From assembly GCA_020439745.1 (NCBI GenBank), contig JAGQSC010000019.1, forward strand, positions 1-64,000: a stretch of 64,000 bases of DNA, read 5' to 3'. The position numbers and the translations under genes were made by a program. Positions within the stretch are counted from its first letter, which is position 1; each line of letters starts with the position of its first letter. Under the pieces are notes generated by a model that saw nothing but the letters and a program-made list of their open reading frames with translations, made no database searches and had not been told where the DNA came from. This stretch comes from Acidobacteriota bacterium. Lineage in GTDB: Bacteria; Acidobacteriota; Holophagae; Acanthopleuribacterales; Acanthopleuribacteraceae. Shown here piece after piece: positions 61,501-64,000 of this stretch.

Positions 61501-61662
61501 ACTGTCCTTCGCAATCTCTCGGGACAGCCAGGTGGCCATGGCATTGCTCTGAACGACGACAATGTCCTGTTCAAGCGGCAAGGGAGCCGGATGTCGGAGC
61601 CAAACCCCTAAGGCCTCGCCCAATCGTTCTAGCCGATTGCTTTGAGTGATGATTAAAGCCAT
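58540..61662 (-). CDS. recC: RecBCD enzyme subunit RecC (exodeoxyribonuclease V gamma)
   Basis: 1040 residues. RecC recognises the recombination hotspot sequence and holds the complex; its helicase domains are inactive. Family blocks are QSNRLERLGEALGVWL at the start, VVQSNAMATWLSREIA, VFAPPTLSPLYLQIL, MAPDINQYAPII and ICLLGLNESTFPR. ATG 61662 starts the protein at the conserved first strand (ALIITQSN). The earlier frame start at 61800 would run into the divergent operon. No strong ribosome binding site was seen. First gene of recC-recB-recD. Confidence 0.93.
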   Translation of the reverse strand: MALIITQSNRLERLGEALGVWLRHPAPLPLEQDIVVVQSNAMATWLSREIAKDSGICACVSFPFPRALITDLVTSVLGTDAMSRFGRDRLVWDVLEALKQRLSMPLYEPIRASMGESPDRRLQFAAKMAHLFEQYTVYRMDMLAHWEQQSSKDWQSDLWRTVTEHLRESPVRLVQSFVTALPSASLPRRISVFAPPTLSPLYLQILRAVSDHCLVHVFVHAPSAFFWGHTNTSRTKRDHADSDLLGAYGLVGRDFQSMLEAEPYIQADVDFFEEPSRETLLGRIQSDIFHARPMAEIERVPMLSDDTSVQCHSCHSSTREVEVLRDRLLHLFETTDVAPHEVLVMAPDINQYAPIIESVFGHDPKHPLFIPFTVSDRAQSDDSPVISGFLKLLQLCSSRLGAPEVMDFLAHPPISQKFGLEADDLDQISNWLMNCGLRWGRDRQHRHQLDQPGNDAHTWQFALDRLFIGYCFPGRDYRLFHDRLGYDHVEGMDMNLLGRLSQFTEVLMAAHRDASSILSMSAWCDLMDRFITDFFEPDHHSAYEIYCLRQVVQEMRVHAPASGDLFSIATVIWFIKRQLAESVVRSRFMNHGVSFCALLPMRALPFRVICLLGLNESTFPRNEVRDTFDHMAQNRRIGDRSQRNDDLYLFLETILSAREKLWLFYVGQSLKDNRSMPPSVVVCALWDAIAARTTTANGADLIWDRLVVRHPLQRFSRHYFERTDPRLFSFVVEHASVAQKRSSPPSPPPPLCRESLDIKPPETVDLSALVRFFKDPVDAFLRQQLGVSTRLHHRELVQDELIALDPLSRSDAAKLLIRNKLFHIPAGREILSAKGMLPHGSLGERVYLDLERIVIPMYHELQMHWYEPRQAPKQIQVHLDGVVLSGSIADWVGGTLVRFNVANPTGKHLLATWIQLLAIASFESFDWQARHVFYEKNKDRIKIKTYLMKVPDHPQDLLQRIVQIYQRGLQKPVPLRPELGWKLVAREDHDLMDRFVKALEGESDEFWVRFFPEPSSVAQEFCDLVRDVFEPLQAYCHVQS

Positions 61663-61726: not shown

Positions 61727-62317
61727 ATGGCTCGCAAACTGAAACTCCTTTTGGATGACGTGGAGTATGAGTGCACGGTGGACAAATTGGATCGCGGCAA
61801 GCTTTACGGCCATAAAGAAGTCAGTGTGCGCGCCACTGACCACACACCACTGACGAAAGCCTATCTTGATGATTGGGGCAGCGTCTTAATCCACTCCACC
61901 GGCATGGGCTATATCGATGAGGGGTGGCAATGGTGCGATCGTAGCTCACTAGAGCCCGTCGACAACCTAGGCCAACCCATCGAACAGTTCCCATCCACCT
62001 TTGATGGGCCTGTGACGCTTCAGCAGAAAGCAACATTGGACGATTTCTTTATGCATGAAGTTGATAGCGTTTACATCCTGAGGGGCCAGCGCATCCCTGA
62101 ACTTATCGAGATCCTTTCTCAGATGGAGGGCATGTTTGTTTTCCCTTTTAACTACCGGGCGGGACACTCCCCGAAATCGGCGTTTGTGAATCCGGCCGAC
62201 GACGCCCTTTTTCTCATGGTTGCCGAACCTACTGAGGCCACCTTTCTCGACCGTCCACAACGCTTTGAAATCGAAGATATGGACGACGAAGATGAACTTG
62301 ACTTCAGCATGATGTGA
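61727..62317 (+). CDS. unknown protein, first gene of the ligase cassette
   Basis: 196 residues, soluble. It begins with KLKLLLDDVEYECTVDKLDR and GKLYGHKEVSVRA and has a conserved-looking middle (GMGYIDEGWQW, QFPSTFDGPVTLQQ, VDSVYIL). A hydrophobic GMFVFPFNYRAGHSPKSAF and an acidic C-terminus ending DELDFSMM follow. No catalytic motif stands out. I have the impression of a widespread family of unknown role but cannot name it. ATG 61727 has GGGTGAT 6-8 bases upstream. It diverges from recC across 64 bases and precedes the next gene by 6 bases, so one operon with the ligase-like gene is likely. Confidence 0.72.
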   Translation: MARKLKLLLDDVEYECTVDKLDRGKLYGHKEVSVRATDHTPLTKAYLDDWGSVLIHSTGMGYIDEGWQWCDRSSLEPVDNLGQPIEQFPSTFDGPVTLQQKATLDDFFMHEVDSVYILRGQRIPELIEILSQMEGMFVFPFNYRAGHSPKSAFVNPADDALFLMVAEPTEATFLDRPQRFEIEDMDDEDELDFSMM

Positions 62318-62323
62318 GGACGA

Positions 62324-63037
62324 ATGCGGGCCATCAATCTAACAGACCACCACCAGCGCGATACGCATGTCGCGTTTTCATCGGTTACCAAAGGCCGCGA
62401 TGTATTTTTCCGGAAACAAGGTGGGGACAAGGTCTTCTCGGTCAGAGTCATCAAGAATACTTTTCAATCCAATCTAAAGCGGATCGCCAATCGTGCCATT
62501 TCCGAAGAAAAGGAAATCGAGACCCTACTCATTGAAGGTGATCCGGAGATCGACTTTGACTATTCGGGAAAAACCACATCATCCACCAAGACTGTGTACG
62601 TCGATGACGAGGACCGGATCGCCTACCACCTTCGATTTGTGGATGTAACCTTTGACCCGGACGGTACACTCCGCCAAGAATCTGAACATGTGACCCAACC
62701 CTCAAACATAACCGTGGAAATACCGTTGGTCTGGACCAACAAATACGTACCACTCAACAAACTTGCCCGTATGCTGGCTTTCTCTAAGGTCTATCAATTG
62801 CATCATGTCAATGGGTTGACTTATGACTTTCTGTTTCAGGCAGCCAGACACCTTCAAGACAAACGCTCAGCGGTGATGATTGGTGCGGGTGAAAGAGGGA
62901 GGGATCCCCTTCGATTCCAGCGCGACGGACTCAATTACCGCGCGTTCCTCATGGGTACCACAGATGGCGATCGTTATCGCTTGACCTTGCATTTGAGCAA
63001 TCTGGAACTGAAGGAGTTCCAACAGCATGGACATTGA
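62324..63037 (+). CDS. unknown protein, second gene of the ligase cassette
   Basis: 237 residues, soluble, mixed alpha/beta. It has RDVFFRKQGGDKVFSVRVIK near the start, an acidic VDDEDRIAYHLRFVDVTFDP (about 90-110), TVEIPLVWTNKYVPLNKL (about 130), HHVNGLTYDFLFQAARHL (about 160) and a C-terminal strand set (YRAFLMGTTDGDRYRLTLHL). I recognise no family or catalytic site. GAGGACG before the ATG and an 11-base overlap with the downstream ligase-like gene show co-translation. A role in nucleic-acid handling is inferred only from position. Confidence 0.7.
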   Translation: MRAINLTDHHQRDTHVAFSSVTKGRDVFFRKQGGDKVFSVRVIKNTFQSNLKRIANRAISEEKEIETLLIEGDPEIDFDYSGKTTSSTKTVYVDDEDRIAYHLRFVDVTFDPDGTLRQESEHVTQPSNITVEIPLVWTNKYVPLNKLARMLAFSKVYQLHHVNGLTYDFLFQAARHLQDKRSAVMIGAGERGRDPLRFQRDGLNYRAFLMGTTDGDRYRLTLHLSNLELKEFQQHGH

Positions 63038-64000
63038 TCTCAACCGAGCCGAAGTGATCCTTGGGCGTTTTGTTGAAATCCCCATCGAGGCCATTGCTTT
63101 CGATTTGTACCAAAAGGTCAAGGAATACAAACTGCGCATCGCATCAAAGTTCAAATCCATTGACCGAGCCGGGCTGGACCGAATCCAAGGCAACGAATTC
63201 TATGCGTCGGTCAAACTGGACGGAGAACATGCGCATCTCTATTTCAATGGCGATCAGGCATTGTTGATCAGGCACCGCGGTTATGCCTATGCCGGATTAC
63301 CCTGTCTGGACGAAGCTGCCGATCTGTTCAAGGCCCAGGGCATCCGATCAGCGCTGATCCCCGGCGAGCTATTTGTGAGAAAGCCTGATCTGGCGCGAAC
63401 TCGGGTCTTTGACGTGATGTCACTTACCAAGAGCCCAAAGTCCACTCATGAACTCAAAGCGCTCAGTTTTTCACCATTCGACATCCTGGAATTGGACCAC
63501 GAGACGTTCAGCGACTATCGTGAAATCCGAAAACGACTGGAGGACCTGTTCGCGTCGTCTTCCATGAAACCTCCCCCCCTCATACAAACCACTGATATTG
63601 GGGACATCGCGGCTTTCTACGAGCAATGGGTCAATCAGAACAATGCGGAAGGATTGATGATTCGATCTGACCTGACCTTTCGCTACAAACTGAAGGCACA
63701 ACACACAACTGACGCCGTGGTGATTGGTTATTCAGCGGATGACGACCTACGCATGATCACCAGCGTACTGACCGCATTAGTGAACGACGATAACACGCTC
63801 CAAGTGCTCGCGGCTGTGGACAAGGGATTTTCCGATCTCGACCGGTCACAGCTCTACGAACAACTCACCTCGATTCCTGCAGAATCACAGTTCATGGAAG
63901 TCAGTGCATTTCAAACGCCTTTTCATATGGTGAAACCTCAGATCATAATTGAGTTCAGTGCGACAGATATGGTGGCGGAAAAGAGCAATGGTCTGCCGAT
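63027..64000 (+). CDS. ATP-dependent DNA ligase-like nucleotidyltransferase (cut by window end)
   Basis: At least 324 residues; the frame is open to the window edge. Covalent nucleotidyltransferase motifs appear in order: motif I with the AMP-accepting K63 in YASVKLDGEH, a Glu in IPGELFV (IIIa region), FDILEL followed by RKRLEDL (motif III, as in DNA ligases), EGLMIRSD (motif IV) and YKLKAQHTTDAVVIGY (motif V). An OB-fold-like part follows (LAAVDKGFSDLDRSQLYEQL, KPQIIIEF). The N-terminal 55 residues are too short for a full DNA-binding domain. The start ATG is inside the previous gene, with AAGGAG about 10 bases upstream. DNA rather than RNA joining is likely but not proven. Confidence 0.82.
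   Translation, partial: MDIDLNRAEVILGRFVEIPIEAIAFDLYQKVKEYKLRIASKFKSIDRAGLDRIQGNEFYASVKLDGEHAHLYFNGDQALLIRHRGYAYAGLPCLDEAADLFKAQGIRSALIPGELFVRKPDLARTRVFDVMSLTKSPKSTHELKALSFSPFDILELDHETFSDYREIRKRLEDLFASSSMKPPPLIQTTDIGDIAAFYEQWVNQNNAEGLMIRSDLTFRYKLKAQHTTDAVVIGYSADDDLRMITSVLTALVNDDNTLQVLAAVDKGFSDLDRSQLYEQLTSIPAESQFMEVSAFQTPFHMVKPQIIIEFSATDMVAEKSNGLP

Follow-up and report, generated by a model that had tools for sequence, protein, structure and literature searches.

Nonhomologous end joining (NHEJ) in bacteria pairs a Ku homodimer (PF02735) with the ligase LigD, and in eukaryotes the Ku70/Ku80 heterodimer is paired with DNA ligase IV. Surveys of bacterial NHEJ define its presence by the Ku sequence family, and the literature on Ku distribution treats recognizable Ku and LigD (PMC11936186, PMC7719229). 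Here, we analyzed three adjacent genes, denoted P1, P2, and an ATP-dependent DNA ligase, that lie at one end of the window (the whole 64,000-nucleotide stretch of an Acidobacteriota genome under study). Like bacterial NHEJ, the trio combines a predicted Ku fold with an ATP-dependent ligase in a chromosomal operon, and in one family of the phylum, f22, a neighboring gene is predicted to encode a polymerase of the primase type together with the activity class of a 3'-end phosphatase. It differs in having two unlike small subunits without the Ku sequence signature, and in a ligase that carries a WGR-like tail and no Pol/PE fusion, the polymerase and phosphatase forming a separate and optional gene. 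With Ku70/Ku80 and DNA ligase IV the trio shares two different subunits, predicted as one Ku-like body, and a separate ligase. However, P1 and P2 are much smaller, lack vWA and SAP domains, and are unrelated to Ku70/Ku80 at the sequence-profile level, and no XRCC4 or BRCT parts were detected in the trio. A stand-alone ATP-dependent ligase and a separate primase-polymerase are also features of mycobacterial LigC and Prim-PolC; to our knowledge, LigC has neither Ku-like dedicated partners nor a WGR-like tail.

We think it likely, largely from predicted structure, that the trio is an NHEJ-type module for double-strand-break repair whose Ku is unrecognizable by sequence. By function we would class it as an NHEJ variant; by sequence, it falls outside strict Ku membership. 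The preliminary description had suggested a distinct system, for break repair or for the sealing of nucleic acids, in which the ligase has two dedicated partners, and this view gains support from the Ku-like fold, the WGR-like tail, and the f22 PrimPol-phosphatase. The broader proposal, of a second NHEJ lineage in bacteria without recognizable Ku that uses an obligate two-subunit Ku and a WGR-tailed ligase, with a PrimPol-phosphatase in one lineage, we hold with somewhat better than even confidence. The P2-ligase linkage is one-to-one in 11 of 396 genomes, and the candidate Ku identity of P1-P2 comes from fold only. Searches of the open-licence literature for combinations of Ku-like, WGR, and PrimPol-ligase elements brought up no account of the trio. 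If the proposal is true, surveys with Ku profiles miss such systems, counts of end-joining bacteria would change, and bacteria evolved a heterodimeric Ku independently of Ku70/Ku80, giving a bacterial two-subunit Ku to compare with the eukaryotic one. The ring, the ligase with a break-sensing tail, and the PrimPol-phosphatase would also make a small end-joining kit for mechanistic study.

Layout, neighborhood, and conservation of the trio

All three genes lie on the plus strand. P1 spans positions 61727 to 62317 (196 amino acids, with the family start MARxL kept), and P2 follows after a gap of 6 bases at positions 62324 to 63037 (237 amino acids). The ligase overlaps P2 by 11 bases and covers positions 63027 to 64000, the end of the window, which contains the N-terminal 324 of its 482 amino acids. 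On the minus strand, recC starts at 61662, leaving an intergenic gap of 64 bases to P1. These reading frames and spacings, as first described, proved exact on rechecking. Following the contig past base 64000, as had been proposed, gave the full 482-amino-acid ligase gene (L002:2028-3476, ending at contig base 64475). The next gene is a Sel1-repeat gene (Pfam Sel1, 4.6e-56) lying 219 bases farther on, so that in the window's own genome no co-directional fourth gene touches the ligase. The trio does face recC-recB-recD, and this adjacency is genuine. It is, however, confined to the trio's own genus (G000 and G001), and the functional link to RecBCD that had been suggested along with the layout is therefore unsupported; we rejected a RecBCD partnership.

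Among 396 Acidobacteriota genomes, members of the P2 family were found in 11, and the full-length ligase family was found in the identical 11, a co-occurrence far above chance (Fisher 1e-21, phylogeny not corrected for). P1 was present at every one of these loci, usually in the order P1-P2-ligase, with P1 divergently oriented in genera g147 and g219. The upstream families thus do not occur mostly apart from the ligase, and P1 and P2 fit the proposed role of dedicated partners in this respect. One further genome, G140, gave a ligase match covering the catalytic part only (E = 1.5e-22). Within the class of genome G384, P2 was found in 25 of 162 genomes, P1 was seen for 21 of those 25, and by our count the ligase adjoins P2 in 23; in G479, where P2 has no adjacent ligase, the locus is cut by the contig end. 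Locus L050 (G478, contig C37) has P1 and P2 and no ligase within 1.5 kb downstream, and it is the sole case without a contig-end explanation. A scan of the genome collection with a four-member ligase alignment returned only loci of the trio's own family because the patterns from that alignment are narrow, and the trio may also occur outside Acidobacteriota.

The pairwise divergences of the P1, P2, and ligase proteins correlate with each other (r = 0.97 to 0.98), and dN/dS in a pair of close relatives is 0.03 to 0.05 for each gene. Purifying selection acts on each gene of the trio, and P1-P2-ligase is a conserved unit.

Two features of individual loci are of separate note. SocA/Panacea antitoxin-like genes lie beside the trio in two loci (L027:5907-6710 and L030:4601-5440), upstream of P1 in one and downstream of the PrimPol gene in the other. 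Genome G004 has two full trios, one of them strongly diverged (L007:1501-2850, contig C279), in which the ligase is 33% identical and motif I reads KQDG, not KLDG. The same genome has a third, internally deleted copy (L008:1498-2337, contig C328) that encodes a 279-amino-acid protein in which the N-terminal ~120 residues of P1 are joined in frame to the C-terminal ~135 of the ligase. This is either what a deletion left of another trio or a minimal variant.

The patchy distribution, the nearby SocA/Panacea genes, and the one genome that has a fused remnant in addition to two diverged copies would suit a module of antiphage defense or of a mobile element, sealing or capturing foreign DNA ends. 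We regard this as the most improbable of the alternatives considered, since the trio had no PADLOC match, did not turn up in the searches made of phages, plasmids, and viral contigs, and shows divergences that are congruent across its three genes. A mobile origin was rejected after the trio gave no phage or viral-contig match and the plasmid matches were ordinary LigD or other ATP-dependent ligases only.

An ATP-dependent DNA ligase with a WGR-like C terminus

The preliminary description had attributed to the third protein the covalent nucleotidyltransferase motifs of an ATP-dependent DNA ligase, and these were confirmed as invariant across 13 homologues. They comprise motif I (K63/D65/G66; KLDG at positions 63213 to 63224, plus strand, with K63 as the adenylation lysine), motif III (E114), motif IIIa (F151), motif IV (E208/G209; EG at positions 63648 to 63653, plus strand), and motif V (K221/K223). 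A motif-VI-like RxRDDK around residues 357 to 360 is conserved in the same 13 members. Pfam searches matched DNA_ligase_A_M (1.3e-13) and, with the full protein, the OB domain DNA_ligase_A_C (2.4e-9); among the family members these were found in 12 of 13 and 13 of 13, respectively. With the nucleotidyltransferase motifs and the OB motif VI in place, the protein is by its motifs an ATP-dependent DNA ligase. Its best NCBIfam match is the NHEJ ligase domain TIGR02779 (3.5e-17), at 62.6 bits, below the 227.75 cut-off, and the best solved relatives of the ligase, including the matches of its model, are DNA ligases, archaeal and Lig1 enzymes first, followed by LigIV and LigD. Only catalytic, OB, and WGR-like domains were found, and the fused Pol and PE domains typical of LigD are absent. 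An NAD-dependent LigA is encoded elsewhere in the window's genome, in agreement with the earlier idea of an ATP-type ligase besides the replicative one, and LigA was found in all 12 trio genomes tested; the trio ligase is therefore an extra enzyme and not the sole ligase.

These comparisons bear on the alternative that the trio is a module for repair of RNA or sealing of RNA-DNA hybrids, in which P1 and P2 would be unrelated beta-barrel adaptors bringing nicked RNA to the ligase, and the f22 HAD-PrimPol gene would heal ends as in phage-conflict RNA repair. The ligase does score weakly as Pfam RNA_ligase (1e-5, just below the cut-off). Much stronger scores, however, come from the DNA ligase domain and from the OB domain, which is of DNA-ligase type; motif VI is DNA-ligase-like, the best solved relatives are all DNA ligases, and Ku, the fold that P1-P2 most resembles, is a DNA-end protein. 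We judge RNA repair to be unlikely.

In the model, the last ~90 residues of the ligase (about 394 to 482) fold into four strands (394-405, 408-418, 431-439, and 446-453) followed by a helix (456-470). Aligned with a WGR profile built from Acidobacteriota, this C terminus gave an hhalign probability of 62 (E = 7.5e-5), while the remaining 20 pairwise profile comparisons in the same set gave probabilities of 1.1 or less. The WGR signature of Pfam (PF05406) was not matched by any of 13 ligase family members at E < 10 with HMMER, and we call the region WGR-like for its profile similarity and order of secondary structure. In PARP1, it is the WGR domain that contacts the break. Compared with the WGR domains of PARP1/2 and of bacterial MolR (PF05406), the ligase tail has its four strands and helix in the same order, and its profile match is weak but specific; it falls below Pfam detection and is joined to a ligase rather than to a PARP catalytic domain. 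In an end-joining module, this domain would probably aid the grip of the ligase on the break.

P1 and P2 as candidate Ku-like subunits

Neither P1 nor P2 found a match in Pfam, NCBIfam, PADLOC, PHROGs, or a PDB sequence search. These profile-database searches gave no family for either, leaving both as unrecognized as they first appeared and giving neither a known assignment unrelated to nucleic acids. Ku (PF02735) was likewise not matched by Pfam/HMM searches of P1, P2, or 12 homologues of each, and the Ku sequence signature is absent. Profile-profile comparison of P1 or P2 with an Acidobacteriota Ku profile stayed at background (hhalign E of 0.2 to 0.4), even with 28-member profiles. A direct comparison detected no sequence homology between P1 and P2. 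As no Ku homology was detected by sequence, the case for Ku is a structural one.

A single reading frame runs through P1, the stop codon of P1, and P2, which makes a read-through translation of positions 61727 to 63034 possible. Structure prediction, which the preliminary description had recommended, was run on this translation with the TGA read as Trp, an artificial fusion that serves as a modeling device only, using a shallow alignment of P1 homologues and, separately, P2 homologues. The joint AlphaFold model was confident (pLDDT 86.6, pTM 0.80) and Ku-like. A joint pTM of 0.80, obtained for a read-through fusion, suggests intimate packing of P1 against P2. When the joint model was compared to the PDB with Foldseek, the best 50 matches were all Ku or Ku-containing complexes (probability 0.97 to 1.00), including Mycobacterium tuberculosis Ku (E = 2.7e-4, probability 1.00), Bacillus subtilis Ku, and human Ku70/Ku80. 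Against viral models, the sole match with a probability above 0.1 was to Ku from Mycobacterium phage Dylan (0.98). The similarity to bacterial Ku is modest in TM-score (TMt 0.38 to 0.45), with a large rmsd of 7 to 12 Å, and it belongs to the joint chain as a whole rather than to each subunit or half. At these modest TM-scores, the joint P1-P2 chain is predicted to contain the Ku core fold of beta-barrel and bridge. DSSP assignments on the model show that P1 and P2 both end in the order helix-strand-helix-strand-strand-strand, and comparing by eye, we read this shared order as possibly the latter half of the core of Ku.

An end-joining mechanism for the trio can be outlined from these models. 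Together, P1 and P2 would make a ring like that of Ku, probably a heterodimer, and this ring would thread onto the ends of broken DNA. It would then recruit the ATP-dependent ligase, perhaps through a conserved acidic C-terminal peptide of P1, and the ligase would seal the break, so that ends are joined in the cell. The peptide follows the pattern [DE][DE][LIM][DS]F at the very end of nearly all of 28 P1 sequences, with minor variants, and its acidic-hydrophobic character would fit a docking tail. In the window it reads DELDFSMM (positions 62291 to 62314, plus strand), which recalls the acidic tip of SSB and, loosely, a clamp-binding motif.

Canonical Ku and a PrimPol-phosphatase gene in trio genomes

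Canonical Ku (PF02735) was found in none of the 12 trio genomes tested, against a base rate of 127 of 396 genomes (32%) in the phylum. Families f22 and f34 hold both Ku genomes and trio genomes, and no tested trio genome has Ku. The absence is weakly significant and suggestive only (Fisher p = 0.02 when counted by genome, 0.16 when counted by genus; uncorrected).

It also bears on a specialized module for single-strand or base excision repair, in which P1 and P2 would be a scaffold rather than a ring on break ends. The model for such a module is mycobacterial LigC with Prim-PolC, which has a known role in base excision repair (PMC5663958). The trio ligase similarly stands alone as a catalytic core, with no Pol or PE domain fused to it, and its PrimPol neighbor occurs in some lineages only. 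On the other hand, P1-P2 resembles Ku specifically and no other clamp, and the trio genomes are without ordinary Ku. We give this alternative a low probability, similar to that of RNA repair.

In family f22, an open reading frame of 416 to 448 amino acids lies directly 3' of the ligase. It combines an AEP-TOTE primase domain (Pfam, 1.9e-9) with, at the C terminus, a HAD region similar to a polynucleotide-kinase PHROG (2.3e-5), and its product is predicted to be an archaeo-eukaryotic primase-polymerase joined to a PNKP-like HAD phosphatase. The HAD region is also weakly like HAD_SAK_2 (0.068), and its resemblance both to this domain of RNA repair proteins and to phage polynucleotide kinase is the remaining point in favor of the RNA repair alternative. 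If the trio acts in end joining, the predicted activities of the f22 gene are of the same types as those of the LigD Pol and PE domains, and the PrimPol-phosphatase would fill gaps and clean 3' ends, as these domains do in ordinary bacterial NHEJ. The gene was not found in the trio genomes of families f1, f34, and f73. Among f22 genomes, it is missing from four that bear Ku, save for one HAD-only match, and is near full length in all eight trio-bearing genomes tested, with one in-frame stop in two of the copies. No copy of the PrimPol-HAD fusion was seen in the genome of the window; the fusion is exemplified by L029:10771-12027 and occurs at five other f22 loci.
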